Position numbers and translations under genes: made by a program
The notes under the pieces: generated by a model
Told to the model about the DNA's origin: nothing
What the model saw: the letters and a program-made list of their open reading frames with translations, nothing else
Database searches by the model: none
Source of the DNA: Diplonema papillatum
Taxonomy: Eukaryota; Euglenozoa; Diplonemea; Diplonemida; Diplonemidae
Direction of reading: 5' to 3'
NCBI GenBank assembly: GCA_030068145.1
Contig: JAPJBO010000384.1
Location: 1-64,000 of the forward strand
Length of the DNA stretch: 64,000 nt
Part shown: positions 2,280-26,622 of the stretch, one piece after another
How the letters are laid out: every line of letters starts with the position of its first letter
Numbering within the stretch: position 1 is the stretch's first letter

Positions 2280-3640
2280 CATAACCGCTGTAACCACTTG
2301 TAACCAGCATGTAACCACTGTAACCGAGTGTGACCAGTCTGTAACCGGGATGTAACCGCTGTAACCACTTGTAACCAGCATGTAACCGCTGTAACCGAGT
2401 GTAACCAGTCTGTAACCGGGATGTAACCGCTGTAACCACTTGTAACCAGCATGTAACCACTGTAACCGAGTGTAACCAGTCTGTAACCGGGATGTAACCG
2501 CTGTAACCACTTGTAACCAGCATGTAACCACTGTAACCGAGTGTAACCAGTCTGTAACCGGGATGTAACCGCTGTAACCACTTGTAACCAGCATGTAACC
2601 ACTGTAACCGGGTGTAACCAGTCTGTAACCGGGATGTAACCGCTGTAACCACTTGTAACCAGCATGTAACCACTGTAACCGAGTGTAACCAGTCTGTAAC
2701 CGGGGTGTAACCGCTGTAACCACTTGTAACCAGCATGTAACCACTGTAACCGAGTGTAACCAGTCTGTAACCGGGATGTAACCGCTGTAACCACTTGTAA
2801 CCAGCATGTAACCACTGTAACCGAGTGTAACCAGTCTGTAACCGGGATGTAACCGCTGTAACCACTTGTAACCAGCATGTAACCACTGTAACCGGGTGTA
2901 ACCAGTCTGTAACCGGGATGTAACCGCTGTAACCACTTGTAACCAGCATGTAACCACTGTAACCGAGTGTAACCAGTCTGTAACCGGGATGTAACCGCTG
3001 TAACCACTTGTAACCAGCATGTAACCACTGTAACCGAGTGTAACCAGTCTGTAACCGGGATGTAACCGCTGTAACCACTTGTAACCAGCATGTAACCACT
3101 GTAACCGAGTGTAACCAGTCTGTAACCGGGATGTAACCGCTGTAACCACTTGTAACCAGCATGTAACCACTGTAACCGAGTGTAACCAGTCTGTAACCGG
3201 GATGTAACCGCTGTAACCACTTGTAACCAGCATGTAACCACTGTAACCGAGTGTAACCAGTCTGTAACCGGGATGTAACCGCTGTAACCACTTGTAACCA
3301 GCATGTAACCACTGTAACCGAGTGTAACCAGTCTGTAACCGGGATGTAACCGCTGTAACCACTTGTAACCAGCATGTAACCACTGTAACCGAGTGTAACC
3401 AGTCTGTAACCGGGATGTAACCGCTGTAACCACTTGTAACCAGCATGTAACCACTGTAACCGAGTGTAACCAGTCTGTAACCGGGATGTAACCGCTGTAA
3501 CCACTTGTAACCAGCATGTAACCACTGTAACCGGGTGTAACCAGTCTGTAACCGGGATGTAACCGCTGTAACCACTTGTAACCAGCATGTAACCACTGTA
3601 ACCGGGTGTAACCAGTGTGTATCCGGGATGTAGCCACTGT
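2280..3640. repeat. 71-bp tandem satellite built from TGTAACC sub-repeats (~19 copies)
   Basis: The repeat period is 71 bp (for example TGTAACCGCT at 2351 and 2422). Each unit consists of seven sub-repeats of TGTAACC plus 2-4 variable bases. Copies are nearly identical; the commonest difference is GAG versus GGG. On the minus strand all three frames are open through the array (VTxGYSGY-like peptides), which creates artificial ORFs of 443-817 codons. It lies between the minus-strand YR-RT genes and the plus-strand gene at 3665, so it could act as a divergent promoter region or be a plain satellite. Confidence 0.95.
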
Positions 3641-3664
3641 AAAAACCAGCTATAACCGTTCTCA

Positions 3665-5047
3665 ATGGAACCGTCGTCAATTCTCCATGCACACTCAGGA
3701 GTTCAAGTCGATCCTAATAAACGAGAATCAACCATGACTACCCCCCGTTGCGTGAACGTCTTTGGACTGACCCGCGCTCAGTACGTAAGTAGCGCACTGT
3801 CTGCCAAGGAGAAAACTGCCATTCTGTTGGTACTGGTGTTTGTGTTATCGTCCTCGCTGATCCGGCGAAGCAAGCCGGCTGCACACTCGTCTACAGCACA
3901 GAGCAGCATGAGCGTCAGCGACACCGACGGCGGATTCGAAGACCGGACTGGCCAGTTCGGAGAAGACAGGCTGGCCGAGACAACGGCGCTCTACCTCCGG
4001 CTCCCCTCTCGTGTAACGTCATCGGAAACCGAACCCGATTTGTATCCGAGATTCGCACCTCCGGAACAAGAACTCCTCGTTCTCGCCTGTGCCCAAGCAC
4101 CGCCCCTCGCCGCCGAAAGATTGACCCGAAGACAGCGCCGGTGGTTCCGCCAGCTTCGCCGGCAATGGATCGCCCAGTGGCACGTACGGCTTGGCAAATT
4201 GAGGGCTTGCCTCGGGGTAATACAGGAGTTCTTGTGTCAAGAGGAGGGTCCGCTGTCGGAAGTCGCCTGGGCAAACCCACTCAGGAACTCGGATCGCCAG
4301 CACTGGCAGCAGGAAGAAACTCTACAGCTGCTGATCCGCGATCCGACGGGGCGACTGCGTACAGCGACCGTCGACGGAACGTCGAAACTCTCGCAGGTCC
4401 TTAAGATACCACCGGAGGAGTCCATCTGGGCGAGTAAAAGGGGAGGGGGCCTAGCCCCGCTGTCCATGGACGCCAGGATCGAGGAACTCGGGCTGGTAGG
4501 AGGCGACGAGATTGAGCTGCACGCACGAATGAGAGGGGGGAGTGGTAGAGGCTACCAGGAGACCCGTGTCCCAAGTTGTGCATCCACACCGACTGCTCCA
4601 GCATCCGCAGCTGCACCGGCGCCACCTGCAAGTTGTGCGTATTGCAACCCTGGTGTCTTATCAAGAAACCTTCTGTGCACAACATGCTCCGCTCCTGCGA
4701 CCGAGTTCCCGATTTGTTATGTCACGCGCGTTCCAGTTGCGTTGTACGGGCAGTGGACTGCAGCGAATAAGGCTTTGCCTCGGGTACAGAAAGTGCTATG
4801 TGCCTCAACTGCGGACTACCTCCGAGATGCGTTCGGAAGTCTCACTGCAGGGCTCGCGTGGCCCATCCGGCGCATTCTCTCCGAGTTTGCTGGAAAGCCA
4901 TTCGACACATTCGACCGCATACCACTGCTGCAGGCCGCGTCGGTGTTGTTTGTCTTGTCCCAAGTGAGCGACACCGTGGATCAAACGATCCGGGCTAACA
5001 ATCAGCCAAGAGATGCTGATATCGAAGAACGGTCCATCACCGGCTGA
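3665..5047 (+). CDS. Protein with internal ubiquitin-like domain ending in Gly-Gly
   Basis: This is a 460-residue ORF; a second ATG at 3734 (CAACCATGAC) has a better context and may be the real start. Residues ~51-66 are hydrophobic (TAILLVLVFVLSSSLI) and could be a membrane segment. Residues ~218-290 look like a ubiquitin-like beta-grasp fold. They start LQLLIRDPTGRL, contain an IPPEE turn, and end GDEIELHARMRGGSGRG, matching the position of ubiquitin's LHLVLRLRGG. A Pro/Ala linker and two CxxC pairs (CAYC, CTTC) follow, which may bind zinc, then a ~130-residue C-terminal region I do not recognise. The Gly-Gly is internal, as in a precursor that is cut or a fused domain. The gene overlaps the next ORF by 35 bases and converges on the RT-USP gene at 7622. 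Assignment of the ubiquitin-like fold is by pattern only. Confidence 0.65.
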   Translation: MEPSSILHAHSGVQVDPNKRESTMTTPRCVNVFGLTRAQYVSSALSAKEKTAILLVLVFVLSSSLIRRSKPAAHSSTAQSSMSVSDTDGGFEDRTGQFGEDRLAETTALYLRLPSRVTSSETEPDLYPRFAPPEQELLVLACAQAPPLAAERLTRRQRRWFRQLRRQWIAQWHVRLGKLRACLGVIQEFLCQEEGPLSEVAWANPLRNSDRQHWQQEETLQLLIRDPTGRLRTATVDGTSKLSQVLKIPPEESIWASKRGGGLAPLSMDARIEELGLVGGDEIELHARMRGGSGRGYQETRVPSCASTPTAPASAAAPAPPASCAYCNPGVLSRNLLCTTCSAPATEFPICYVTRVPVALYGQWTAANKALPRVQKVLCASTADYLRDAFGSLTAGLAWPIRRILSEFAGKPFDTFDRIPLLQAASVLFVLSQVSDTVDQTIRANNQPRDADIEERSITG

Positions 5048-6185
5048 TGCTCACGACTTCCTGATGGATGGCATCCGGTTCTGGAACGTCAAGGACCGAA
5101 GGGATTGTGGCGGGCGCCCAAAAAAGGAGACCGACTCGGAGGCGGAGCGGAACCGGAAGACGTGGACATGGGTAGAGGCCATGCATCGCCGAGGGCAAGA
5201 CCCTGCCGTCCAGCGGACCGTCGACGAACTGCGTGAACGAGATCTCGCGCATTGGCTCGGGGTGAAGGGCCTCCTGGGTAACATCGCAATTGCCAGCATC
5301 GTTGCGGCTCTGCTGACGGCTCGCGTGGCAGGTCCGACTGGACAGCAGCCGGTGGCCCGCCCAAGCATCACTCCATCCGCGGTTTCTCGATCGCGAGTTA
5401 CCCCGACCGCCAACGCAGCTACCTCATCGCCTGGGCAGCAGCCGAAAGCTCAAAGCATCCCTTCCGCGGGTGCTCGACCACAAGTTGCCCCGGGTGCCAA
5501 AGCATCTACCGCGTCGCAGCCCATCGCCACCCTAAGAAGCACCCCTTCCGCGGGTGCTCGTTCACGAGTTGCCCCAGCCGCCAACGCAGCTACGTCGTCG
5601 CCTGCCAACACTGCTCAATCAAGACCTGCCCCTTCTCGGCCAAGAGGGTCCATATCAGCCTCTGCAGCGCCGTCTGCCGTAGCAGCTCCATCGCAGCCTG
5701 CATCTGCTTCGCCTATTCTGCTCCCTGTTGTTACGGCTTCAGCGAAAAGAAAGCCAACCCACCAACCCGATACACTGGGAACACACAAACGCCTCCGCAC
5801 GACATCGGCCACTAAACCCGCCCCGTCAACAACTGACAAGCGTTCCTCAGCAGCTGTTCCCGCAGTCCCACAAGGCAAACGCACGACACCGGCCACTAAA
5901 CCCGCCCCGTCAACAACTGACAATCGTTCCTCAGCAGCTGTTCCCGCAGTCCCACAAGGCAAACGCACGACACCGGCCACTAAACCCGCCCCGTCAACAA
6001 CTGACAATCGTTCCTCAGCAGCTGTTCCCGCAGTCCCACAAGGCAAACGAAAACGTGCCTCGTCATGCCCGCCCTCTTGTCCGCCGCCCAAGGCCATAAA
6101 GCGAAGCAACGTGTCGTCGTCATCATCATCATCATCATCAGCATCATCATCATGTTCATCGTCGTCGTCGTCATCGTCGTCTTAG
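5013..6185 (+). CDS. Repeat-rich basic protein overlapping the ubiquitin-like gene
   Basis: This is a 390-residue ORF. Its start lies 35 bases inside the previous gene in another frame, so it may be a separate cistron or a frameshift extension of that protein. Residues 1-100 look globular and helical (DAHDFLMDGIRFW, TWTWVEAMHRRGQ, LRERDLAHWLGVKGLLGN). The rest is low complexity: Ala/Pro/Ser/Thr-rich sequence, three copies of an 84-bp repeat (TTPATKPAPSTTDNRSSAAV motif), a Lys/Arg-rich stretch (PQGKRKRASSC, PPKAIKRSN) and a final poly-Ser run encoded by TCA/TCG triplets. I do not recognise the globular part. The composition resembles a disordered, nucleic-acid-binding tail as seen in structural proteins of retroelements, but that is only a guess. 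Confidence 0.55.
   Translation: MLISKNGPSPADAHDFLMDGIRFWNVKDRRDCGGRPKKETDSEAERNRKTWTWVEAMHRRGQDPAVQRTVDELRERDLAHWLGVKGLLGNIAIASIVAALLTARVAGPTGQQPVARPSITPSAVSRSRVTPTANAATSSPGQQPKAQSIPSAGARPQVAPGAKASTASQPIATLRSTPSAGARSRVAPAANAATSSPANTAQSRPAPSRPRGSISASAAPSAVAAPSQPASASPILLPVVTASAKRKPTHQPDTLGTHKRLRTTSATKPAPSTTDKRSSAAVPAVPQGKRTTPATKPAPSTTDNRSSAAVPAVPQGKRTTPATKPAPSTTDNRSSAAVPAVPQGKRKRASSCPPSCPPPKAIKRSNVSSSSSSSSSASSSCSSSSSSSSS
5796..6047 (+). repeat. 84-bp in-frame coding repeat, 3 copies
   Basis: CGCACGACAYCGGCC recurs at 5796, 5880 and 5964. The period of 84 bp (28 codons) keeps the reading frame of the surrounding ORF, and copies differ by only a few substitutions. Confidence 0.95.
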
Positions 6186-7621
6186 CCATACTGCCGTACG
6201 TACCCCGAGTCCATTGGTACATAAAATAGAACTGTTCTGTTTTTCAATGGGCCGTAAATCATTTTTGGTAAAACGAAGACGGCTTGCTTGCTAGGACTTT
6301 TCACTTTGGTTCTCACCCTGACCTGGAACTGGGGAAAATTGAAAGCACAGCTTCGGAGTTTCTTTCCTTGTCTTGCCGTTCGGGACGTTGTCCGCAAGCA
6401 TACTCTGCCTCTGATGATAGATAATGTCGAATGTTCCGGCTATCCCATACGAGTTGAAGGTTCGGAGGGGTAACTTGCGGGGAATGATTGTATTTTGATA
6501 TTCCCGCAAATACCACAAACAGTCCCGGATATGGCTAGCCATAACCCATAACGAAAGCATGCAATAAATATACAATCCGTAACCATAAAGCCCTTTCTTG
6601 CTCTAAGAGAACCCATTCATGAACGGTCACACGGAGACCCTAAAACCCCGGTATTTCAAGCGAACTTTAACTCTAAATATACGCCACATACTGTAATATT
6701 GTATAGTTTTCGGGACATCCACTAGAAGCACTGGGTTTCCGAAGATCAACGCGAAAAAACGCCGAAGGCGTACCTTGGCGTACCGTACCGTCCGGCCGGG
6801 GGGCTTGGCCCCCCGGACCCCCCATTCTTCAAACTTTCACAAAAACCGTGAGGTGGGCCTCGAATTCTTCTAAGTGCAAACGCTGATGTCCTGGACAAGC
6901 CACCCCCCCCAGGAAACATAAAACCCAAAACCCAGACCGGCCAGATTCAGTTTCCACCCCTGGGGGGGGGGGGGTCGTTGTTGTTGGTGATGGTTTTGTG
7001 GGATGAAGTAGGGGAAAGAAAATTTCTTTTTGCGGTGGTCTCCGCTGGCCTGGTAGTCCGTGCTACCTCCTTTCTTTTACACTCGTTCTCTTCTCTACTC
7101 ACTACTGTACGTACTCTTTCGCTCTTTTTCTCTCTTTGGCTAGCCAAAACAAAAGACTTCTGCGACCGACACCACGAACACATTCGCAATGAATGTGGCC
7201 CTGGGCCCCCCACGTGCATACATGTTGAGCAGGGGTTGCCATGTAGCCCGTATCGGTCTAAGTCAACACTGTTACTTTCATGGGATGTTCACCGGGGAAG
7301 GGTCCGACCTAACCGTTAGTCAACAGCAACGTCGAAAAGGGGGAGGGGGAAAGAAGATAGAAAATCGGTGGGGTTGACAAGCTCGTAAGTGGTTGTTTGT
7401 AGATCAGTACAACCTTAAACTACGCCTAGCACACGGCCAGGCGGTCTTTAACGAACCTCCAGTACATTAAACGCAAGTCGGCAGGTCGTCATCAGACGCG
7501 GCACGAAAAGCAAACGTCGCCGACGCAGCACTTCAGCAATGCGTCCTCTTATTTACAGTGGGCACCGTACCTGAACTCAGCCCCGCTAGGCCGAGATTCC
7601 GGCTGTTCCGCAGGGCATACA
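6186..7621. other. Intergenic stretch between the convergent genes; one dispersed repeat
   Basis: I see no convincing gene. It contains a G11 run at 6964-6974, a C/G-rich palindrome near 6797-6823 (CCGGGGGGC..GCCCCCCGG), and a dispersed repeat at about 7140-7330. Related copies of that repeat are at 25890-25972 and 38296-38480 (shared GCGACCGACACCACGA and TACATGTTGAGCAGG). The last ~240 bases should hold the 3' untranslated part of the RT-USP element, but I could not identify its end. Confidence 0.5.
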
Positions 7622-10600
7622 TCACTCCCCGAAGTTGACGTACGTGCAGAGACGTTCGTGCACATGCAGGCCTCTGAGGCCCCGGAACAATCGACCGTCC
7701 TTGGTGCGGTCGGTGAAGCAGCGCTTGCAGCGCAGTTCCGGGGGGTCCTTGGGCTGTTCAGGTGGCTGGTCGTGTGCTGCCAAAGCGGCGTCGGAGGGCA
7801 TGGGTTGGCAAGATTCCAGATTCGCGTCGGTACAGGGCGGACTAGAAGGTATCAGCGGGACCTGCGGTGGGACTGTTGTTGCCATCATAGTAGGTGATGG
7901 CAAGCGTTCGACCACCTCGTGGGACGCATTGGGGATTCGTACGTATGCGGCGAGGTATATGTCAGTCCAAGGAACGTTGTCGACGTGCAAGACTCGTTCG
8001 TCATCGAAAAGCGTCCATTGCATCCCTTGCAAGACGTATGTGACAAAATGGCCGCTTGTCGTATTTTGTCCCGTGTGTACAACCACCGCGGAAAGGCGTA
8101 GTGTGCCGTCCGGCAGTCGCAGGAGGAGCGGTAGGGAAGCGTCATTCCGTAGTCTCGCACCATCGCTTGCGTAAATGCCGAACTGCAACAGCAGGCACTC
8201 GGACGCCACATGCACGTTCATGGTCTCCACAACGGATCCAGCAGCTCCGCAGTCACACCTCCTCTCCGGATTCATAATTCCACGAACACAGAATGCGTCC
8301 TCCACCGGCCTTCCACGAGGGACTTGAAGACACCGTACCAGTTGATGACGGGTGGATGTGGCGCCACAGGCGATACATCGTGTTGTTGTCGTCATCGTGT
8401 TTTCCAGGCACGTCTGGAAAAGCCGCCAATCCGGACAAGCCTCCGTCGTCTCGTCCGGCCCTAGGGAGCTGTCTGTCCTATCCAGAATTGCAACCAAAGC
8501 CTCGTGCGCGTCGTGCTGTCGCGCATCGCAGAACATTGGGAGCATGGCGAGGATTGTTTCAGCCCCTATCCTTCGGCTGTCTTGGCTGAGCTGGCTCCTC
8601 CCCGAGCGCGAGCTTACCAGTAGGACGAAGTACGTCAAGAACTCCTTCAGGAACCCCCGGAAATTCAGAGGATTCTGCGCAAGACTGTAATACATGTTCT
8701 CGATCGGTTCCACACGCAACAAGAGCTGCAGTACCGCATTGAGAAAACAAGTATTCCCAAGGTTCGGGAGGCCGGCAGGTTCAAACGGTGACGGGTCGAA
8801 CATGCGGGAGGGCCGTTGGATACAAATGACAGCTTGGCGGCCGACAGCGGGTGATGATTCCAGCATGTCAGGCACTGCATGGGACACGTCGCAGCGCCGT
8901 TTCGGTCCAGGCTGAGCAGCCTCATCGTCTCTGCGCTTGCGCTTTCCTTTAGTCGTCCCATCCTGGGGCACAAGATCACGACGCTGCTTCGGAGCCGCAG
9001 TGGAAGGCCGATCGGGCGTATCTCGTTCCGTTCGTGTGCCAGGTCGAGGACGGTCCCTGTATCTCACGAAGGCCTTCTCAGCGAGCAGCCTCTCGACCGC
9101 TTGGTCGATGGACTCCAAGTCGGGCATCTGCAGAATGCGTTCCACTTCATGTACGAGCCACACGAAGTGCGCACGGATCTTCTCGCAGTGATCACCGAAC
9201 TTCGCTTCTGGGTACGTGTCTAGTAACCATTTACGAAACCCACTTTTTAAGACACTCTTGCGGTACCCCCGTCTCATGAGCTTCAGCACCGTGTTGTTCA
9301 TCTCGGTCTTAAAGTCATGGAGGTTGTTCGCAATCCTGCCGTTACGCACAAGCGCTCCGATGAGGATACTCGACCCAAAGTTCGATGGAGCCGTGGAGAG
9401 CACGGATGTGTACGCCAAGGGCTGGTATCGGTATGCCTTCGCTTTGTCGAGGACTGACAGGCGCATGTATCTCCTCCCGGACATCTCGGAGACTTCATGT
9501 CGAATCCGAATACCAAGGAAAGTGGCGTCCCCAACCTTGGCGTTTGTCTGTTTGTACCTCATGTTGTACACAGATTCCGGTGGGGGTTTTGTGCCGAAAC
9601 ACAACAGATCGTCAATGAAGCGGCGTGTCAGGCTAAGCAATGCCGCACGTTGCGTGTCCCCGTCTTCCAAGAGTCGCATCATGTATTTTCGCTCTTTCGC
9701 ATAGCAAAAGAGGTTGGCGATGTCCGGGGAAGCGTTCGCACCCATTGGGATGCCTAGCGTCTGCCTCATGAGAACCCTATTGACCAGAACATAGGTATTC
9801 ACCAGGCAGAAAGACAAGAGGGTCTTGAGCTCCTGCGCCGAATACGCTGCTTCATGTGACCGTACCTCCGTGTTTACCTTAAAGGCGAAACAGCGCTTCT
9901 TACGAGTCGGCCCGTGTTGGCTCTTCGGACGTACTAATACGAGTCTTCCCGCGTCCACGTTCAAACGTGCAGCCTCCGCCGCGAAGGCCTCATTAATCGT
10001 GTCCGCAACCGCATTAAGAAGCTCCTCAAGCTCCAGCTGGTCATACATCGTTGTAAAGTCAAATGTACCAGCGTCCAGCTGCGCGAGTTCGTCCGCGTGT
10101 GTCTTCAGGAAGAAGGCCGTGTCGTCGCTCGACTCCGTGATCCAGAAGTACCGGTACCCAGTCGCGTTGAACCGAATGTCGTCTTCCCGCCGGAGGATGC
10201 TCATGATCGCCTTCAGCAAGCCGGTCAGGTCCAGTTGCGCGTCCGTCGTAGACGAGAACGTGGTCTTAGGGCGGGCGTCCCGTCCAGCATCGGCCGCCTC
10301 GGAGTCGGAGTCGACACAGTTCTTCCGCGAAACCCCAGCGATGTACCGCATGGACGTCACTTCCTTGTGCAGCTTCAGGGTGCCATATAGGTATGGGAGG
10401 ACGTTCGATGAGTGTAATCCTTCCCGTCCGAGGTAGGCCTTGTGCCTCGCAATGACTTGTTGAGGCGTCTCTTCGCTCGGGGAGTAGTTCGTACTGTGAT
10501 TGACCTTCGCGTGTAAGTCCTGGTTGTAAAATCTTTTACACACGAAGCCGAAATCATGCGAGCTCTTGTCCACGGGCAGGATCACGAGATGTTCCTGCAA

Positions 10601-11107
10601 CTCCAACAGTTTTTTACGCGCTCCAGCCGTCAGCTCCGGATCGGCTCCCACCCGGGAGAGGTCAACCGTGGCTAGTATCTTCCTCCGTAGCATCCTTGCG
10701 AAGTGCGGAGGGGCGTCCTTGAATTGCTCCTCAACGAACTGGGTCACAGCTTTGTCGACCTCCCTGCAAACGGCTTCTTCCCCACCGTCCGGTCGGAACT
10801 TGCGACCCTTGTCAAAAAGCGAAATTAGCTCGCTCGACGTTTTGAGGAGGTGTGCCTGCCCGCACGCATGCCCTTGGATGTGGTATCCGTCTAGAAGGTA
10901 GCGTTGGCAAGGGCATTCACCAGGGGGAGGGGCCGGGGCAGCAGTTGTTTGTCGCGAAACATCCGTAAAGTTTGACAGAAGGACCCCGAGGGGAGGATTA
11001 AGCGACGTGGAAACCCTCGTGTTCACGAAGTCCGTTGAGTCCGCGAGCATTTCACGGAGTTCGGTATCGTGACGGAAAACGGCGGCTAGCTTCCTTTCAT
11101 CCATCAT
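7622..11107 (-). CDS. Reverse transcriptase fused to a ubiquitin-specific protease (Penelope-like element ORF2)
   Basis: About 1161 residues from ATG 11107. N-terminal part: a Cys/His motif (CPCQRYLL..HIQGHACGQ) and a DKG-like motif (VILPVDKSSHDFG). RT: motif A FDFTTMYDQL, motif B GIPMGANASPDIANLF, motif C RRFIDDLLCFG. After a basic linker (KGKRKRRDDE, GPKRRCD; possible nuclear signal) comes a USP-family deubiquitinase. Its Cys box is NLGNTCFLNAVLQLL (Cys codon 8747-8749, about residue 787), with QHDAHEAL, CxxC pairs (CIAC, CDCG), and a His box GHFVTYVLQGMQWTLFDDE (His near residue 1020, then the Asp pair). The catalytic set looks intact. The C-terminus has a further CxxC...HxxxxC finger. RT and USP lie in one uninterrupted frame, so this is not a shift or splice artefact. 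Known Penelope-like RTs have no protease of this kind to my knowledge. The USP could spare element proteins from degradation or process a ubiquitin-like fusion. Confidence 0.85.
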   Translation of the reverse strand: MMDERKLAAVFRHDTELREMLADSTDFVNTRVSTSLNPPLGVLLSNFTDVSRQTTAAPAPPPGECPCQRYLLDGYHIQGHACGQAHLLKTSSELISLFDKGRKFRPDGGEEAVCREVDKAVTQFVEEQFKDAPPHFARMLRRKILATVDLSRVGADPELTAGARKKLLELQEHLVILPVDKSSHDFGFVCKRFYNQDLHAKVNHSTNYSPSEETPQQVIARHKAYLGREGLHSSNVLPYLYGTLKLHKEVTSMRYIAGVSRKNCVDSDSEAADAGRDARPKTTFSSTTDAQLDLTGLLKAIMSILRREDDIRFNATGYRYFWITESSDDTAFFLKTHADELAQLDAGTFDFTTMYDQLELEELLNAVADTINEAFAAEAARLNVDAGRLVLVRPKSQHGPTRKKRCFAFKVNTEVRSHEAAYSAQELKTLLSFCLVNTYVLVNRVLMRQTLGIPMGANASPDIANLFCYAKERKYMMRLLEDGDTQRAALLSLTRRFIDDLLCFGTKPPPESVYNMRYKQTNAKVGDATFLGIRIRHEVSEMSGRRYMRLSVLDKAKAYRYQPLAYTSVLSTAPSNFGSSILIGALVRNGRIANNLHDFKTEMNNTVLKLMRRGYRKSVLKSGFRKWLLDTYPEAKFGDHCEKIRAHFVWLVHEVERILQMPDLESIDQAVERLLAEKAFVRYRDRPRPGTRTERDTPDRPSTAAPKQRRDLVPQDGTTKGKRKRRDDEAAQPGPKRRCDVSHAVPDMLESSPAVGRQAVICIQRPSRMFDPSPFEPAGLPNLGNTCFLNAVLQLLLRVEPIENMYYSLAQNPLNFRGFLKEFLTYFVLLVSSRSGRSQLSQDSRRIGAETILAMLPMFCDARQHDAHEALVAILDRTDSSLGPDETTEACPDWRLFQTCLENTMTTTTRCIACGATSTRHQLVRCLQVPRGRPVEDAFCVRGIMNPERRCDCGAAGSVVETMNVHVASECLLLQFGIYASDGARLRNDASLPLLLRLPDGTLRLSAVVVHTGQNTTSGHFVTYVLQGMQWTLFDDERVLHVDNVPWTDIYLAAYVRIPNASHEVVERLPSPTMMATTVPPQVPLIPSSPPCTDANLESCQPMPSDAALAAHDQPPEQPKDPPELRCKRCFTDRTKDGRLFRGLRGLHVHERLCTYVNFGE

Positions 11108-12311
11108 CTTGCTCACCTGCCGTATGCAGAACCAAGGCGTTCGTGCTGCACTCTTTCTTTTTCGCAAGATGGTTGATCTCACTAAGCCTCGCCGTGAGCA
11201 GCTCGTCCAGGATTGCTACCTTCGGGTGCTGCAGGTGCTCAACCATGAACATTCGCACCCAGGTACGAACTCTGTAGACGCGGCTCTTCATCCACGGGTT
11301 CACGTCGTATGCCCGTAGGGTGTCCTCATCGAGTCCGAACATGTAATGCAGCTGCTTCCGGATGCCGAAGTATCGGCCTCGACTTTGGTCCACGTGGACC
11401 TGCCCATCCTTCACATGCACCCAGGCGTCTCCGCGCTCTCGAGGATTTTCCGGGGTAGACTGCCCGCTGTCCGGTTTGCCCTTGAACGACGGAGCAGATC
11501 GCGGCTTCTTACCTCGCTTGTTAAAGCCGCTTGCAGTACTAACCATATTGAACTGCGGCTTTAGCCTCGCGATGAAAGCCATTTCTATCGGCTCGGCAAC
11601 TTTGTCGAAGTTACCCCCAGCCGCATAGAACGCTTCTGGGACGTCGTAGAGGATGAACGCGTAAGGCGGCGAGGGGAGGTTCTGCAAGTGTCGCTTGAAC
11701 CTGTCCTGCTTGGTGTTCCGGCCAGACCAATGCTTTGTAACCCGCTCCTGCATCGTCTTGCTCGTCTTGCCGATGTACAGCAGGTTGGCGTGGGCATCAA
11801 CTAGTCCGTAGATGAGACCCGTAGCGCGGTAGTTGCTCGCGTCTGTCGGGCGCTGGAGTCTCATCGTCGCGTACGTGTGGTCTAGGAGCCTGCGATACCT
11901 CTTCTGGAACCGGGCCGTAAACAGCTCGCCCTGCTCTTTCCACTTCGGCCAATCTATCTGTGTCGTCTTCTCCGTTTTGCCACGTACACAGTCAGTTTGG
12001 AAGAATGGTGCGAGAAAGGGCTTTGCGAACTCCGGGCGTCGACGCATGTCCGCGTCAGCTGGTGGCAAACGTACCATGTTGACCGCGAAGCTCTTGCGAG
12101 GATTGTGGGGCCGGGTCCGTATCGTAAAGGGTGGTGCTCTGTACAGGGATCGGGGTTGCCGGGGGTAGTAGAATGCGTCGGCTGAGGCGTTGACGGAACG
12201 TAACGGAACTGATTTGAATTGCTTGAGGGAGGCTGTGCACTGTACAAAGGGGTGGTAGCGGGATTGGGTGGTGAGCGGGTTGCTGTTCTGGATTTTGGCG
12301 GTACTCTTCAC
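11097..12311 (-). CDS. GIY-YIG endonuclease ORF upstream of the RT (Penelope-like element ORF1)
   Basis: The GIY-YIG nuclease domain is clear: GLIYGLVDAHANLLYIGKT, then a helix with the conserved Arg (QERVTKHW), and a downstream Glu in VAEPIEMAFIARLKPQFN. The open frame starts at a GTG at 12311. The first ATG in frame is near 12077, so the N-terminal ~78 residues may be untranslated or come from a spliced leader exon. The stop codon overlaps the start of the RT-USP ORF in the string ATGATGGATGA (11107-11097), which suggests termination-reinitiation coupling. A GIY-YIG placed before the RT is the permuted order described for the Chlamys/Naiad clade of Penelope-like elements; classical Penelope elements carry it after the RT. 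Here it is a separate ORF. The nuclease is expected to nick target DNA to prime reverse transcription. Confidence 0.85.
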   Translation of the reverse strand: MKSTAKIQNSNPLTTQSRYHPFVQCTASLKQFKSVPLRSVNASADAFYYPRQPRSLYRAPPFTIRTRPHNPRKSFAVNMVRLPPADADMRRRPEFAKPFLAPFFQTDCVRGKTEKTTQIDWPKWKEQGELFTARFQKRYRRLLDHTYATMRLQRPTDASNYRATGLIYGLVDAHANLLYIGKTSKTMQERVTKHWSGRNTKQDRFKRHLQNLPSPPYAFILYDVPEAFYAAGGNFDKVAEPIEMAFIARLKPQFNMVSTASGFNKRGKKPRSAPSFKGKPDSGQSTPENPRERGDAWVHVKDGQVHVDQSRGRYFGIRKQLHYMFGLDEDTLRAYDVNPWMKSRVYRVRTWVRMFMVEHLQHPKVAILDELLTARLSEINHLAKKKECSTNALVLHTAGEQDDG

Positions 12312-12459
12312 GCGACGTACACGGTGTTGCTGTTAGGGGTGTCGGTTTGTTGCTAAGCTCAAGTCTTAGCGCGCTTTGTTCGGAGGGTGCGTTTTGTGGT
12401 CTTGGTTGGGGGTTTTCCCGGTTTGTAGTAGCGAGCCGCATGCTACCAGGGGGGGGGGG

Positions 12460-12856
12460 CAGTGCTGATACTAAGCCTGAGACCCAAACGAAGTTGCTAA
12501 CCCTGGGTGGGGGGGTACCCCCCCCCTACCCCCCCCCCCCCCCCCCCCTCCTGGTGCAACCCACTGTGGACCTACTGTGGGACCCACCTTAGCTAAATTC
12601 TCTAAGGTGAAATGGTGGAAAAAGTGGGTCGAAAATTCTTTTTTTCGAGTGCTTTTTTGGGAGGATTTGGGCCAAAAAAAAATTTTTTTTTCTTGGTCGG
12701 TGCTGAGGAAACCACCTTAGAGCGGTCACCACCCTGCTGCACACAGGCCCTGCAAGGGGGGGGGGGGGGGGGAGGGGGGGGGGGGGTACCCACCCACCCC
12801 TCGTTGCCGTCCGGCTGACAACGATGCCGAGTTTAGGGGCCTTAGCATCAGCACTG
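12460..12856. mobile_element. G-tract-inserting MITE, copy 1 (397 bp)
   Basis: It begins CAGTGCTGATACTAAG and ends with the reverse complement of CAGTGCTGATGCTAAG, giving inverted repeats of about 16 bp. It is flanked on both sides by runs of G (12450-12459 and 12856 onward). The interior has a conserved TCTCTAAGGTGAAATGG block and an A-run/T-run palindrome (GGCCAAAAAAAAATTTTTTT). A second full copy is at 32070-32447. No coding potential. The CAGTG ends would suit a hAT-type element whose target duplication is itself a G run; that is inference. Confidence 0.85.
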
Positions 12857-12885
12857 GGGGGGGGGGGGGGGGGGGGGGGGCGTAC

Positions 12886-13594
12886 CATTTCTTGTGTCAA
12901 TGTTCCCAGCGGAATCGGCGGAGCCCATGAAGGTGATGGCGTCGTTCCAGTCGAGTCCTCCATTGGTGGTGTTGCGGGTTTCGGATGAGACGAAGTGCAT
13001 CCAGTCGTCGAAGGTTGTTCCGAGAAGGTCGTTGCCCACGAGGAAGTTGAACGTGCCCCCCCAGTTGTCCGGGTTTGAGTTCGGGGAGAACGGGAGAGCC
13101 TCGTATGTGATCGAACGAAGGCCGTGCGGCGCCAGCTCCTGCTGGTTGGCGGCCACGAATCTACGCATGGTTTGGTCCATCCATTCCGGGCTATTCGTGA
13201 TGTCCGGGTGGTGGTTTTGAAGGAAGTGCAACGTTGTGTCGGCGGTCCTCTCGGGAACGTCTGTGAACGACCTCAGGTTGCTCTCGGTACCTGTCAGAAT
13301 CGACTTCAGCAGCCTGCCAGTAACCTCGGCAACGTTGTCCTCACCCGCTTCGAAGCATCCTCCGACACTTTCATCGCCGGTGTCCCTCGCATCATTCGTC
13401 GAGTCGTTACCGCTCGTGATCGCAAGCGACGCCACGATGGCCCCAGTGAGCACGACGAGCGTTGCTGACAACAGCATCGTCAGGTTCTGAATTCCTGGGG
13501 ACCACATTTTTGCGCCGGAACCCCCAAACGGGTGGGTCTGTTGCGGTCTTCGCTCCGAAAGAAGAAAAAAAGGACTGAGAACAGGTGCAGCCAA
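12886..13594 (-). CDS. Orphan first exon of a second dCache receptor
   Basis: The exon encodes ~236 residues. It has a cytosolic N-terminus, a membrane helix (LLSATLVVLTGAIVASLAI), then the start of an extracellular dCache sensor (GGCFEAGEDNVAEV, LAPHGLRSITYEALPF, NWGGTFNFLVGNDLL), ending DTRN plus one base. It is a close paralogue of the exon at 50429-51131 and stops at the identical splice position: ...AAATG|GTACG with the donor GT at 12885-12884, phase 1. In transcript sense the intron opens directly into a poly-C run and the MITE at 12460-12856. I find no exon 2 between here and the left edge; that space is taken by the Penelope-like element. It is either a truncated gene copy or a gene with a very long, transposon-filled intron. 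Confidence 0.7.
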
Positions 13595-14102
13595 AGGTTG
13601 CTTGTTCCTCCTACGCTTCTTTGTTAACTGTTGTTTTTAGAGGTTCTTAATGAAAGAATTGCTTGGGCTCGCTAGTTTTCTAGTGCCTTTTTCGTGTTTT
13701 TTTTTCTCTGGTTGTTTGCGGATCAGAATTAAATGGACAGCTTTCGGTTTTATTTAGCAAGCAAAAAGCAGAAAGAATAGCAAACCTGGCGGTGTGTTGA
13801 AAAAAGAGGGGAAGAAAAGATTTAGAGCGCGAGAGAGGGGGAAGATGGGAAAACTCCCAACTCCTTCTTATTCTTGTTGTGTGTGTGTGTGCGTGTGTGT
13901 GTGTGTGTGTTTTTTCTATGCCCCTCGCGTTCTTCTGTGTTGTGAACACCAAATACCTGGACGGGTTTTCTAGACTGCTTCGTGTTTTAAAACTCGTTGT
14001 TCCAAGTCTCCCTTATACGCGCCCCCCCAGGGGTGGCCCTAAGCGGCCAGATTGCGGAGTCGTTGGCAGAATCTGACCTGACCCCCCCCCCCCTAGGGGG
14101 TA
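13595..14102. other. Presumed upstream region of the orphan exon; GT microsatellite
   Basis: No gene seen. It contains a (GT)n-like run at 13877-13910 and G/C-tracts at 14020-14100 next to the left end of the 9.3-kb element. It should include the promoter of the exon at 12886-13594 if that gene is expressed. Confidence 0.5.
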
Positions 14103-14300
14103 CACGACGCACTTGTTAGCTGTTTTTTTGGGACATAACTAGTTATATTTCTAACAAGTGATTACTTGTTATATAACAAGTGATTACTTGTTATATAACA
14201 AGTGATTGCTTGTTATATAACAAGTGTTTGGTTGCAATTTCATAAGGAACCTGGGGTTTGTACCTACCTACGAGAGAAAGTCACGTGATCTGCAAGACAC
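14103..14300 (+). repeat. Left terminal inverted repeat of the 9.3-kb element
   Basis: 198 bp. The palindromic units at 14151-14225 alternate GATTACTTG and GATTGCTTG, and the inner boundary is TGCAAGACAC at 14300. Its reverse complement is split between 22401-22506 and 23286-23411. Confidence 0.9.
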
Positions 14301-14455
14301 TAGGGTTTTGGCAAACAAACGGTTGCTGCAAGCGCGCTTGGCATTTGGACACCCGAACCGCTCATTCGGGGTTCTTCTGTGGGTCGAAGTTTCTTGTCGT
14401 GTGAAAAATCACACTTTACAGGACCTTCTCCCACAAGAAACAGAAGAACCACATT

Positions 14456-15442
14456 ATGAGCAAGCGCAGTGACAACTCGTCGAAGACCGCGGAGAAAAAG
14501 AGGAAGAAGTCGGGGGACGCCGGGCCGGACATCATCGAGGCCCAGACGGCCCAGGTGATCGTCGACTTCGTCGACGTTTACTGCGTGGCGAAAGACGACA
14601 CCGAGGTCATGCACGTGGCCTTAAAAGCTGTGGTGCAGACCCTATTTGGCTTCGAGCTCGGCGGCCGCGATGGCAGGATCAGCAAGGCCATCGGTGCGAA
14701 GTTTCCTCGCATGCTTTATGCGAAGAATCAGGCGGAGGCAACCGACACGAAGCTTTACGCGCTGAGGATCCGCCTTAACACCGATATGGTTTTCCGCGGG
14801 GTTTACCTCCGCAAGAGCCCCACGCCTGCACAAAAGGCAGGTGAACCATACACTCGTCTGCGAGCTGCCGCCGTCAAAGATATTTGCCTTGACAACGTAG
14901 ATGTGACGAGCATCTACAAAAGCAAACTCCAAGGGCAGGTTGTGGGCGCCGGTGCTGCTGTAGGAAAGCGCAACCCCAGATGGCCTTACATTACTGTCGT
15001 GGGCAAACAGCAGGGGACCGTCGGTTCGGAGTCGTTGACATATCACTGTATTGTGATAGAAAGTGGGTGTACGGTGATTCCGGAAGCTCACCCCCCGATC
15101 CTCACTGGAAACTGCCTCGCATTCACCCTGTATCGCGAACTACCATCGTCAGGAGGCGCCGCAGGCCTTTACAAGGGTAGCTACACTCTGCCTTCAGATG
15201 TCATCATTGACACCACTAAAAGCATGCTGGTTACAGAGTCAGGAGGGCTTACTGTGGTGAAGTTTCCTTTGGCTACAACCGCCAACCAGGTGATTACCGT
15301 CGAGCGGGGCAATTGGAGAAACAATCCAGAATTGTTGGGCGTGTCATTAGACCAAGTCGAAGATGACCGCGCCAGTGCAGACGACACCGACAATTCCGAT
15401 AACGCATCCGATCACGAGGTGCACTTTCAGCCTGCAAACTAG
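14456..15442 (+). CDS. Unrecognised 328-residue protein of the 9.3-kb element
   Basis: ATG at 14456 lies 156 bases inside the left inverted repeat (context CACATTATGAGC). The N-terminus is short and basic (KTAEKKRKKSG; nuclear-signal-like). A globular ~270-residue body follows with alternating hydrophobic strands (AQVIVDFVDVYCVA, LTYHCIVIESGCTVI, GLTVVKFPLA), and the C-terminus is acidic (DDRASADDTDNSDNASDHE). Codon use looks genuine and no repeat explains the frame. I recognise no catalytic motif. The basic head, beta-rich core and acidic tail would suit a DNA-binding or capsid-like protein, but nothing proves either. It is the best candidate for the element's defining gene. Confidence 0.7.
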   Translation: MSKRSDNSSKTAEKKRKKSGDAGPDIIEAQTAQVIVDFVDVYCVAKDDTEVMHVALKAVVQTLFGFELGGRDGRISKAIGAKFPRMLYAKNQAEATDTKLYALRIRLNTDMVFRGVYLRKSPTPAQKAGEPYTRLRAAAVKDICLDNVDVTSIYKSKLQGQVVGAGAAVGKRNPRWPYITVVGKQQGTVGSESLTYHCIVIESGCTVIPEAHPPILTGNCLAFTLYRELPSSGGAAGLYKGSYTLPSDVIIDTTKSMLVTESGGLTVVKFPLATTANQVITVERGNWRNNPELLGVSLDQVEDDRASADDTDNSDNASDHEVHFQPAN

Positions 15443-18179: not shown

Positions 18180-19283
18180 TTAAAAAAGAACCGCACCGAC
18201 ACATAAAACCGTAAGTCCTAAAACGCAGATCGGCGACATGCCGGGCTGCGGTGCGTGTTCTTGCACAGGGGCAAGCGAACCACCCCCCGTACTTTTCTCC
18301 TCGGGTACGGCTGGCGGCAGGGAGGGTGGTTGCGGTGTTTCTTCACGCACCAAGGCAACCCCTCCTGTTGAAGTGAGCAAACTGATACTGTCTAGCTTCG
18401 CACCGGTTTCCCGCGCTTTGATGACTAGCGTGTGACCGCCTGCCAAAACTGCTGAGTAATTGTGAACGGATAAGGATACCCAGTCTCCGGTTTGGCTGCT
18501 GGATAGTGTTTGGAAGTTTTCGTCATCGAGTTTGTAGAAGAACGATGCGCTTGTACTGGCTGGGAAGTTGACACGAGCTGTGATACTAACGGCAGAGGTC
18601 TCTGTCAAAGTGAACGCGATTTCCACTTGCCTGTCTGCTCCTTGTGTGGGGTCCAACTGGGCGGTACTACTGCTGGGCAAAACAATGCACTCCCCTCCCG
18701 TCGCATCTACATGAGACTCAATCACGAAAGGTGAGAACGAGCTCTGCGAAGAGAGGGATTCAAGCTCTATGACAAGCACTGGGCCGGCATAGAAGATCTC
18801 GCCTTCGAGTACAACAATTACGATCCTGTCCATCACCGCTTCCGTTTCTCGCGCTTTGAGCACCAGAGTGTGCTCGCCTGCTGCGAGAAACGGAAACGTG
18901 CGCCCATAGATGTCCCAATCGGCAGCAATAGCTCCGTTTTGTGTGTAGTAACTCGATGTTTCAGGATCGATGCCATAAAAAAACGAATCCCTTGTATAGT
19001 CTGGGAATAGGCCGTGAACGTAGACATTCACAGCTGCCACCTGTGTCGTGGTAAAGGGAATTACTACCTGCCGGTCATCCATTGAATTTGGGTTGAGCGA
19101 TAAAGAAACTCCGTCAGGCAGCTCAATTGCTTTGCCGCCCGATGCAGTAGCTACATCTTTTACTACAAAAGGTGCAAAGTTCGGTCGAAGGCTGAAATGC
19201 TCCAGCTCCGCGGTGATCGATGTGTAAGCAGCAAGCAGCGGTGTGGCAAGAAGGGAAAGCCCGAGTATGGTGCGCGCCGTCAT
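18180..19283 (-). CDS. Secreted, probably GPI-anchored protein with two carbohydrate-binding-like repeats
   Basis: 367 residues. There is an N-terminal signal peptide (ILGLSLLATPLLAAYT), two homologous ~130-residue domains, then a Pro/Ser linker and a hydrophobic C-terminus with no basic tail (ICVLGLTVLCVGAVLF) typical of a GPI-anchor signal. Each domain contains FAPFVV/FSPFVI, a DRQVxIxFT strand, SFFYxxD, and a final LAxGxHTLVxKARETxAxxDxI. This is the pattern of CBM6/CBM35-like beta-sandwich modules. The product is expected at the cell surface, where it may bind sugars. It lies inside the 9.3-kb element on the opposite strand to the other two genes, so it is either captured cargo or part of the element. 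The fold assignment is by motif only. Confidence 0.7.
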   Translation of the reverse strand: MTARTILGLSLLATPLLAAYTSITAELEHFSLRPNFAPFVVKDVATASGGKAIELPDGVSLSLNPNSMDDRQVVIPFTTTQVAAVNVYVHGLFPDYTRDSFFYGIDPETSSYYTQNGAIAADWDIYGRTFPFLAAGEHTLVLKARETEAVMDRIVIVVLEGEIFYAGPVLVIELESLSSQSSFSPFVIESHVDATGGECIVLPSSSTAQLDPTQGADRQVEIAFTLTETSAVSITARVNFPASTSASFFYKLDDENFQTLSSSQTGDWVSLSVHNYSAVLAGGHTLVIKARETGAKLDSISLLTSTGGVALVREETPQPPSLPPAVPEEKSTGGGSLAPVQEHAPQPGMSPICVLGLTVLCVGAVLF

Positions 19284-22400: not shown

Positions 22401-23411
22401 GTGTCTTGCAGATCACGTGACTTTCTCTCGTAGGTAGGTACAAACCCCAGGTTCCTTATGAAATTGCAACCAAACACTTGTTATATAACAAGCAATCACT
22501 TGTTATATTAAGCATTTATTCGGCAAGATAATTTCCATTTATTTTGCCGAGGTGTCGGTTTTAGTCCCGAGGGAGGCCCGAGGGGGGGTTTGCAACCCCG
22601 AGCCACGAGCGGAGCGAGTGGCGAGGGGTTGCAAACCCCCCCGAGGGCCTCCCGAGGGACTAAAACCGACACCGAGGCAAAATTGGCGGAAATTATTGCC
22701 GAATAAATGATTTTATTGGGAAAACTAAATTCCCGAGGATGGAAAGAAAACCATACTGCTTTGCAGTTATGTTGGTGTCTAGCAGAACGTTGCGTAGCAA
22801 ATGTGCACGGCAGAACGTTGTGTAAGACGTTGAGCATATTGCTTTGCAGTTACGTTGGTGTTTAGCAGACGTTGCGTAGCAAATGTGCGCGGCAGAACGT
22901 TGTGTGTCTGAGACATTGCGCAGCAGTAAGTTGTGTTGGAGTGGAGTTGTTGTAAGTGACGGGTCACAGATCAATGTGCCTGGTTGTTCTGCTGCAACTG
23001 GGGGAGTCCCGGCAGGTTGACGTTGTAGTTCACAACATACGATGCCGCTTGCATGGGCGCTTGCATGAAGGACTGCACAGGTGCTGTCGTGCTGGGTAGG
23101 ACTGTTGGATGAGCGCTGCTGACAAGTGCTGCGGTCGAGTTCTTGATATGGATCAGAAAGGATGAATTAGACTCAAAACGAGCTCAAAACACGCGATTTC
23201 ACTCACCACAGGTCAAAAAATAAACGAAATTTATCGTCACGCTCCTCAAGCCATTTCCACCAGAGGGAATTTATTTTTCCCAATAAAACAAGTGATTGCT
23301 TGTTATATAACAAGTGATCACTTGTTATATAACAAGTGACCACTTGTTACATCACTTGTTAGAAATATAACTAGTTATGTCCCAAAAAAAACAGCTAACA
23401 AGTGCGTCGTG
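22401..23411 (-). repeat. Right terminal inverted repeat, split by a nested insertion
   Basis: The inner part is 22401-22506 (GTGTCTTGCAGATCACGTGA to the palindromic units) and the outer part is 23286-23411 (palindromic units, then AACTAGTTATGTCCC and CGTCGTG). The outer part has small differences from the left copy (GATCACTTG, GACCACTTG units and a GTTACATCACTTG deletion), so the ends have begun to diverge. Confidence 0.88.
22507..23285. mobile_element. Nested ~780-bp insertion with a ~200-bp near-perfect palindrome
   Basis: It interrupts the right inverted repeat of the 9.3-kb element. 22509-22706 folds on itself: ATTTATTCGGCAA..GTGTCGGTTTTAGTCCCGAG on one arm and its complement on the other, with the centre near 22610. 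Two ~100-bp tandem units follow at 22745-22925 (GCAGAACGTTG, GTAGCAAATGTGC), and the right end carries TTTATTTTTCCCAATAAA. No coding capacity. It looks like a foldback-type non-autonomous element; the exact boundary and duplication are ambiguous within the AT-rich target. Confidence 0.65.
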
Positions 23412-24740: not shown

Positions 24741-26084
24741 CGGCATGCACTGTAGAAGGGGGGGGGGGGTTGCAAGAACGTGCTTGGAATGGGTATGTGC
24801 TCAACACCGCACTGGTCCCGTCTGCGCCGTGTTTCGGTCCTTTAAGCCACGGACACATAAGGCGGACCATCATCAGCGTGGAACCTGAGTGTCTGCAGAC
24901 AGGACTGCGGTGTGAGTCTGGTTTGTCAGGCGGTGTTCGTAGCTCGTCACAGCCAGGACCACCCGCGCTACTAGAGCACAGGCGAATCCGTCACGGGGAG
25001 AAGGCCCCTACAACCGTGTCTGAGCAATCAGTTAAAAAACTCAGGGCACTCGCCCTGATTGTGACTGCGACTCGCTAGGCAGCACTGACTTGGCTTCTTT
25101 TTACGGTGGCAATCTGCGAAGTAAACTCCGCAGAGCACAGTGGACATGGGGTTGCCGTGTGCAGCACCAATGGTTGAAGTACCAAAAGGAAAAGAGTGCG
25201 AGGAAGTAATCCTGCGTGCTGAGGGCAGCAAGTCGCGTTCGCGAAGTACCCTACTGGAATGGGGGGATTGCAAGAACGTGCTTGGAATGGGTATGTGCTC
25301 AACACCGCACTGGTCCCGTCTGCGCCGTGTTTCGGTCCTTTAAGCCACGGACACATAAGGCGGACCATCATCAGCGTGGAACCTGAGTGTCTGCAGACAG
25401 GACTGCGGTGTGAGTCTGGTTGGGGGGGAGGGGGGGTCCCTTGCAAAGTCGTTGGGGGCTCTCAGGGTAGTGTCAGCACTGCGCCCCCCCCCCCCCCCCC
25501 CCGGGCAGTGATGTTGTCAAACGTTTGCAAACGTACGTTTGACAAGATTTATCAAACGCAAACGTTTGAGAGAGAGAGAGACGAGTTAGAGTGCAGGGAC
25601 CATCTCTCCGAGGAGTATCCGGTCGCCCCACTACTATCCCGTACTACTACGGCGGGCGCAAGTCGTTGCGCCGTGGGCGCGGAGCGAGCCGTGGCCCAGT
25701 CAAAGATGATTGTTGTTTGCACGTTTGGCAAACGTGCAAACGTGACGTTTGCCAATCGATGAACCGGGTCTGTACACAGTACACGACCCTTGATAGCACT
25801 TGTCCACGTGGCTGCAGGCGGACACGACGAAGATAAGGGAACAAGTCATCGATCTGGTTCTCTTTGGGCGTGCACAGGGAGATACAGGGAGATTTAGCCA
25901 AAACAGACCTCTGCGGCGCCGACACCACGAACACATTCGCAATGAATGTGGCCCTGAGCCCCCCGCGTGCTAAAGAGTACGAGGGGCGGGCTTTAAACAG
26001 CGTACGCTTTGAGGTTTTAATGCGAAGGATATGTGGCAACTAGTCTGGAGTAGCCACTCGGGGGCAATATTCTACATGCGGCAT
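24741..26084. other. Mosaic of dispersed repeats, no gene
   Basis: A ~155-bp repeat occurs at 24771-24925 and 25266-25424 (TGCAAGAACGTGCTTGGAAT .. GACTGCGGTGTGAGTCTGG), with a third copy at 37546-37679. 25563-25690 is a second family (AGAGTGCAGGGACCATCTCT) with copies at 52984-53110 and 61986-62045. 25890-25972 is a third (see 7140). Palindromes ACGTTTGCAAACGT occur at 25518-25531, with related CACGTTTGGCAAACGTG at 25718-25734. C-runs at 25483-25502. Confidence 0.6.
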
Positions 26085-26622
26085 TGTGTGAGTGCGGGTT
26101 TAGGTCTGGGCTCAGATTGAAGGTGCTGTGAGTGGCTCTCGGTTGCTACCCGCGGCTCCCGTTTTCTTCCAGGCCTTCTTGCATGTTGTGCCCGCAATGA
26201 AGTGTCAGCTTGGAACTGTTACGAACAAGAAGAATCCAACTGGCAAGAATTAACCACAGCATTTTGCTTCATCACAGCGGTGGCGAGTGAAATGTGACTT
26301 CTGCCCAGAGCCCTGCAAGTCAACGCTGAGAGATCAGGTCAAGCGCGGGTAAACGGCGGGATTAACTATGACTCTGAAGGTAGCCAAATGCCTCGTCTTC
26401 TGATTAAAGACGCGCATGAATGGACCAATGAGGTTCTTTCTGTCTCTATCTACTATCTGGTCAAGACAACGGACTTGAAACTGTCAAGGGGGACAGAAGA
26501 CCCTGTTGAGTTTGACTCTAGGTCTGGGCGCAGCTTGGGACCGTTGCGAACAAGAGGAATCCAGCTGGTTTAATCAAACCTCAGCATTTCGCTTCACCAC
26601 ACGCGGTGGCGAGTGGAATGGT
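26085..26622 (+). rRNA. 28S rRNA-derived fragment, copy 1 (rearranged)
   Basis: 26286-26525 follows eukaryotic 28S rRNA: GACTTCTGCCCAG, AAGCGCGGGTAAACGGCGGG, AACTATGACTCT, AAGGTAGCCAAATGCCTCGTC, GACGCGCATGAATGGA, TCTATCTACTATCTGG and GAAGACCCTGTTGAG. The universally conserved ACTCTCTTAAGGTAGCC reads ACTCTGAAGGTAGCC (26371), an internal loss. Upstream 26098-26285 matches the second fragment at 49210-49440. A partial duplicate of the GGAATCC..TTTAAT block follows at 26529-26620. The loss at a universally conserved site and the rearrangement argue for a relic, not a working gene. Confidence 0.8.

Follow-up and report, generated by a model that had tools for sequence, protein, structure and literature searches.

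A ubiquitin-specific protease domain on a multi-copy, putatively Penelope-like retroelement of Diplonema papillatum

Reading frames and domains at the locus

The window analysed here, 64,000 nucleotides of DNA from the marine protist Diplonema papillatum (assembly GCA_030068145.1, contig JAPJBO010000384.1, positions 1 to 64,000), carries a copy of a retroelement in which a reverse transcriptase (RT) is fused to a ubiquitin-specific protease (USP). The copy is 5'-truncated, lies on the minus strand and was placed at 6962..12440 by homology to 20 fetched copies (main pieces 99.5-99.9%); it ends at about 6962, followed by a run of C. Its frame of 1,161 codons (11107..7625, minus strand) encodes RT, USP and a finger-like motif, and the plus strand of 7622-11107 contains many stops. 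A frame for a GIY-YIG endonuclease precedes it (12077..11100, minus strand; Pfam E 1.5e-5, 25.6 bits, cut-off 22.6). The best protein match, P0001, is a single protein of 1,485 amino acids (aa) spanning both frames: the endonuclease frame, the N-terminal part of the intact protein, corresponds to residues 1-309 with 99.0% identity, and the RT-USP frame to residues 304-1485 with 99.5% identity. Because P0001 joins both frames in one protein, the window copy is, judging from its sequence, broken between endonuclease and RT. A further copy, L016, differs from it by two gap positions within the open reading frame (ORF) and has an unbroken 1,485-aa frame with endonuclease, RT and USP together, the domain order of the intact protein being GIY-YIG endonuclease, RT, USP and CxxC...HxxxC finger. 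The window copy is a slightly damaged member of a recently active, multi-copy retroelement. The original prediction had described an uninterrupted frame of about 1161 codons with RT and USP, and this fusion stands; the strand, the in-frame endonuclease of intact copies and the break in the window copy had gone unmentioned.

The RT core (9137..10639, minus strand) was recognized from motifs read by eye and from related proteins found with a profile, its Pfam match to RVT_1 being below the cut-off (E 0.1). Motifs A, B and C lie at residues 350, 452 and 499-500 of the window frame, with the motif A Asp at 10058-10060, motif B starting from 9754 and the motif C Asp pair at 9608-9613 (all minus strand). 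A search of the PDB with the RT profile returned no relative at E 10. Between RT and USP lies a fast-evolving linker with a basic, nuclear-localisation-like stretch (8795..8989, minus strand), which is only 22% identical in aa sequence between subfamilies f1 and f2a and has a ratio of non-synonymous to synonymous substitutions (dN/dS) of 0.46 between f2a and f2b. The C-terminal finger-like motif (7646..7729, minus strand) follows a pattern that recurs in related proteins.

The USP domain (7976..8773, minus strand) matches Pfam UCH over residues 779-1044 with 83.3 bits (E 2.8e-23; cut-off 23.9). The residues expected of a USP are present, namely Cys 787 (8747-8749), Gln 864 (8516-8518), finger Cys 911/914/951/953, His 1020 (8048-8050) and Asp 1035 (8003-8005). 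Searches found 23 USP homologues, and when 15 of them were aligned with the window frame (16 rows), no row departed from Cys, His, Asp or the Gln-Asp-Glu box. The catalytic boxes recur in f1, f2a, f3a and the related protein P0042; in f3c the QDAxE-type box is altered to DVHE. The structure predicted from the same 16 rows is a USP fold (predicted local distance difference test 79.6, predicted template modelling score 0.82), and 374 PDB chains matched it at E <= 0.001 in a Foldseek search, with USP1, USP46 and USP12 at the top (E of about 1e-20). The earlier description of the USP as intact-looking is therefore borne out by the retained Cys, His and Asp and the passed Pfam cut-off, and of the suggested hidden Markov model searches those for UCH and GIY-YIG both succeeded. 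From sequence and predicted structure, the USP on the element is probably a competent deubiquitinase.

Copies, subfamilies and selection

To place the frame in the genome, the assembly of 271,365,524 bases was searched with the RT-USP frame; 40 of 1,308 candidates were scored, and all counts are lower bounds. At least 43 matches were returned, of which at least 25, the window included, cover residues 1-1161 at about 100% identity. Since the frame is matched in full at no fewer than 24 other places, it is not a product of chance. At least 14 matches start late (residue 56 to 300) and run to residue 1161, one with a stop; among the matches listed, two others form one split copy with one stop and two are short matches at 48% identity. 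No copy of the window family without the USP occurs among these matches. Immediately upstream of two 5'-truncated window-family copies on C97 (318341-321457 and 380453-383569) lie short USP matches at 48% identity; an open frame of 1,459 is listed for all four matches, and the pair is maybe chimeric or nested with another subfamily.

For end mapping, 20 of the at least 24 other full-coverage copies were fetched. Homology reaches window position 12440 in 13 of them and starts later in seven; among the 13, the homology of eight runs on upstream as far as DNA was fetched and that of five stops earlier. Other copies reach at least 2.1 kb further upstream than the window copy. The 3' end is common to 20 of 21 copies (window included) and is followed by at least four C's, L019 ending earlier. 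Read in L016's frame, neither the 20 copies nor the window has a stop at an aligned codon. Two of the eight long copies, when extended, have 8,172 bp in common at 99.9% identity. A 594-bp part of the 3' untranslated region (window 6968..7562, approximate, minus strand) is repeated upstream of the leader at 99.8% identity (L009+L029 versus L016+L030), forming a pseudo-long terminal repeat (pseudo-LTR) that is uninterrupted in one of the two extended copies; the second extended copy has a shorter upstream repeat, broken up by other sequence. The leader contains a 222-bp tandem repeat of 3.4 units. Runs of eight or more C's lie within 20 bases upstream of the 5' end in six of eight truncated copies (seven plus the window), against 15 of 8,000 random 20-mers (first 1,500 bases of 20 loci, both strands), suggesting target-primed insertion often into C/G tracts.

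The same organization was found in five more subfamilies. A search with P0002 (31 of 1,336 candidates scored) gave at least 34 matches, at least 18 of them with full coverage at about 100% (f2a) and at least six at 86% (f2b), while at least 10 are truncated or split, two of these with a stop; the whole of P0002, USP included, is covered in 24 of the 34, and no f2a or f2b copy without the USP is among the matches listed. P0039 was first met through an RT-only profile search, under the name 'Ubiquitin carboxyl-terminal hydrolase 26', and as a query (52 of 1,502 candidates scored) gave at least 53 matches. At least 43 cover the protein, comprising at least four at about 100% (f3a), at least 13 at 80% (f3b) and at least 26 at 72-75% (f3c; one with two stops), and at least 10 are partial; among these, one is 40 residues short at its C-terminal end, and a copy split over two matches lacks part of the USP. 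Loss of the USP in other copies had been named as evidence for a one-off fusion: none was seen among the scored copies of the window and P0002 families, and in the P0039 family the USP is damaged in two of 53 matches and the whole query is covered in 43.

One copy each of f2a, f2b, f3a, f3b and f3c was read as a single open frame of 1,428-1,499 aa with RT and USP. UCH exceeds the Pfam cut-off in the window frame, in f1 and in four of these five copies (f2a, f3a, f3b and f3c; f2b was not scanned), and GIY-YIG is at or above its cut-off in f1 (23.0 bits), f2a (22.6, equal to the cut-off), f3b and f3c and just under it in f3a (21.4 bits, cut-off 22.6). Tandem copies occur on C510 (three at 5,726 bp spacing), C2819 (two at 5,850 bp) and, from the P0002 search, C230 (two at 7,901 bp). 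Together with the window family, the genome thus holds six USP-bearing subfamilies.

The gene model P0003 was considered as a USP-less copy and rejected: residues 1-1498 are covered by six copies that are 86% identical to P0002, among which C94 (L032) was read and has the USP. The USP missing from P0003, whose own locus was not found, probably reflects a mis-called intron. In gene models P0003, P0004 and P0006-P0009, parts of the element are attached to sequence from the host or elsewhere, and some of these joins share one RT point; such chimeric models are likely due to false introns, though real splicing into the element may occur.

To assess maintenance of the USP, Nei-Gojobori dN/dS was calculated per domain with one copy per subfamily. 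For f2a/f2b the USP ratio is 0.243 (bootstrap 0.181-0.349; dS 0.54), compared with 0.070 for the RT, 0.127 for the endonuclease and 0.462 for the linker. USP ratios of 0.112 (0.062-0.169) for f3a/f3b, 0.155 for f3a/f3c and 0.173 for f3b/f3c, and of 0.169 and 0.202 for f1 against f2a and f2b, are rough because USP dS is 1.3-1.9; in the f3 pairs the RT gives 0.070-0.104, the linker 0.221-0.390 and the N-terminal extension 0.425-0.444. Differences from L016 in the 20 copies and the window amount to three synonymous and two non-synonymous in the USP, 11 and 0 in the RT and 17 and 15 in the endonuclease part, counts that provide no test because shared differences are counted repeatedly. Neutral evolution of the USP, raised earlier as a possible outcome, is not what these sequences indicate: the USP is under purifying selection, with constraint weaker than on the RT.

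The window has other features as well. At 3596-6122 (plus strand) is an internally deleted copy of a different multi-copy element, whose full form (L036:70-8445) has a 2,791-aa frame. Inspection of this frame by eye suggested hAT-transposase-like motifs and a ubiquitin-like stretch that ends in RMRGG; neither call has a significant match in Pfam or the PDB, and Pfam detects a UCH domain (28.2 bits, cut-off 23.9). The ubiquitin-like ORF in the window was considered as part of the RT-USP element and rejected, as it belongs to this separate element. Perfect 108-nt inverted repeats at 14193-14300 and 22401-22508, 8.1 kb apart, perhaps bound a DNA transposon with ORFs 14456-15442 and 18180-19283. 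A fragment of eukaryotic large-subunit rRNA lies at 26025-26447 (plus strand), in agreement with the scattered 28S pieces reported for the D. papillatum genome (PMC10161547).

Relatives and proposed function of the USP

An RT-only profile search found 14 proteins at E <= 0.01 among 8,000 candidates scored, and no relatives were found in viral contigs. A 3,334-base JGI metagenome contig encodes P0042, which combines RT (25% RT identity; RVT_1 9e-6, 26.0 bits, short of the 29.6 cut-off) and USP (UCH 2.5e-26). The USP lies between RT and finger in f1 and f2 and is terminal in f3 and P0042; a scan found the finger pattern near the C-terminus of P0001, P0002, P0010, P0038 and P0040 and did not find it in P0039, P0041, P0042 or P0043. 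A Josephin-like domain in P0041 is a weak possibility: a hand-picked fragment matched Josephin at E 2.5e-4 (21.3 bits, cut-off 26), and the whole protein has no Pfam family at E 0.5 and nothing relevant in the PDB. P0043 has neither a USP nor a Josephin-like domain. The RT tree (nine rows, two partial, long branches) rejects a single clade of USP bearers in the approximately unbiased (AU) test (p 0.017 with four rows, 0.03 with three), which suggests that the domain was gained or lost at least twice. With 28 rows and very long branches, the USP tree does not reject one clade (AU p 0.371 with five rows, 0.459 with four). The lack of a USP in the relatives P0010, P0038 and P0040 also suggests that it may have been gained or lost more than once. 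It is conceivable, if somewhat doubtful, that endonuclease-first Penelope-like elements captured deubiquitinases repeatedly (possibly including a Josephin domain in P0041) and that, with the unrelated ubiquitin-like and USP element, control of ubiquitin by the element is a general component of how such elements retrotranspose in these protists, maintained by selection.

We favour, with about even confidence, the hypothesis that this is a Penelope-like retroelement whose single protein has the GIY-YIG endonuclease at its N-terminal end and bears, between RT thumb and C-terminal finger, a probably competent USP acting in cis. Insertion would proceed by target-primed reverse transcription, with C/G homopolymer tracts as frequent targets, and the USP, held on the RT protein, would remove ubiquitin in cis during the element's cycle. 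The most likely target would be the element's own protein or ribonucleoprotein (RNP), allowing escape from host turnover; alternatively, the USP may act where the element inserts, on chromatin or repair proteins that carry ubiquitin. Taken together, self-protection of the RT protein or RNP and action on chromatin or repair proteins are given roughly an even chance of accounting for the USP. The USP would be kept active by selection on the element lineage and not on a host gene.

The anatomy, with its 594-bp pseudo-LTR, tandem copies and 5' truncations, agrees with the earlier assignment to Penelope-like elements, a putative identity that forms part of the favoured explanation. Several observations weigh against the explanation. 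The hammerhead ribozyme motif is common, though not universal, in Penelope-like elements; no hammerhead reached the Rfam gathering score in the window, L016 or L024, none is among 24 weak Rfam matches in window 5500-14500, and a crude core pattern is absent from two long copies. Because 5' truncation always keeps the 3' sequence, the USP's presence is partly forced and its occurrence in every copy is weak evidence, so that dN/dS between subfamilies is the better test of maintenance; there, synonymous sites are unsaturated in the f2a/f2b pair only. The USP also evolves faster than the RT (58% versus 75% identity between P0001 and P0002). Moreover, in P0010, P0038 and P0040 the RT is accompanied by a low-complexity linker and the C-terminal finger, with no USP, and the USP is therefore not indispensable to such elements.

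The weaker constraint on the USP than on the RT, together with the DVHE variant of the QDAHE box in f3c, would also suit a module retained for ubiquitin binding or structure, for instance in reaching ubiquitinated chromatin, with catalysis irrelevant; we consider this unlikely, as Cys, His and Asp are kept in the very divergent f1, f2a, f3a and P0042. Still less probable is that the USP processes a polyprotein or a ubiquitin-like fusion encoded by the element or a neighbour. The original prediction had proposed an element-encoded fusion of this kind, and another multi-copy element in the genome does encode a ubiquitin-like stretch ending in GG; however, no ubiquitin-like domain was seen in the endonuclease-RT-USP frame, leaving such a substrate unsupported, and the nearby stretch (window 3665-5047) belongs to that other element, which has its own UCH domain and whose ubiquitin-like stretch was called by eye and matches nothing significantly in Pfam or the PDB. 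The database name 'putative ubiquitin carboxyl-terminal hydrolase 16' and the several chimeric-looking gene models could suggest that a host USP gene was joined just once to a dead retroelement, or that the fusion is an artefact of gene models, but the six subfamilies, with many single-frame copies in DNA independent of gene models, and the purifying selection on the USP make this highly improbable.

Comparison with known systems

The proposed cis-acting USP resembles cellular USPs (USP1, USP12, USP46 and USP36) in predicted fold, catalytic triad and finger cysteines, whereas its identity to them in fold alignments is 17-24% and it is fused to an RT. Chlamys and Naiad were reportedly described by Craig et al. 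in 2021 as Penelope-like elements with a permuted, N-terminal GIY-YIG domain. The Diplonema element is like them in having GIY-YIG and RT in one frame with the endonuclease first, as in L016, and like Penelope-like elements generally in its pseudo-LTR, tandem copies and 5' truncation; it differs from the Chlamys/Naiad type in adding a USP and in that no hammerhead was found. Canonical Penelope/Poseidon elements share RT and GIY-YIG, pseudo-LTRs and partial tandems, but in that clade the endonuclease is C-terminal, and the parts consulted of the two sources mention no ubiquitin protease (PMC11167929, PMC3846280).

Ubiquitin-related domains on other mobile elements have been described. Planarian Burro LTR elements have ubiquitination-linked domains (PMC6431247), and PMC7599744 cites, by title, a study of deubiquitinase-like domains in a Helitron. 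The portions of the literature on deubiquitinases and OTU that were covered gave no Penelope-like element with a USP, though the paper on endonuclease-first elements may mention one, and 'Penelope' and 'ubiquitin' do not occur in the portion of the main text of the D. papillatum genome paper that was available (PMC10161547). The significance of the present element is that an apparently competent deubiquitinase sits on the very protein that copies and inserts it, in many single-frame copies, several lineages and under purifying selection. The idea that mobile elements manipulate host ubiquitin (PMC2836005) would thereby become directly testable through the change of one catalytic residue, and D. 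papillatum is described as a genetically tractable protist (PMC8611851).

The nearest precedents for a protease carried in this way are Ginger1 transposons with OTU or Ulp1, other DNA transposons (Mutator and Helitron) with such proteases, and a Trichomonas vaginalis transposase_11 fused to peptidase C19, for which an aid to transposition or repair has been proposed (excerpts of PMC2836005). These cases and the Diplonema element alike place a ubiquitin- or SUMO-type protease on a mobile element; as far as the excerpts describe them, they are DNA transposons with mostly OTU or Ulp1 and no Penelope-like RT, whereas in Diplonema a USP is joined to the RT of a retroelement.

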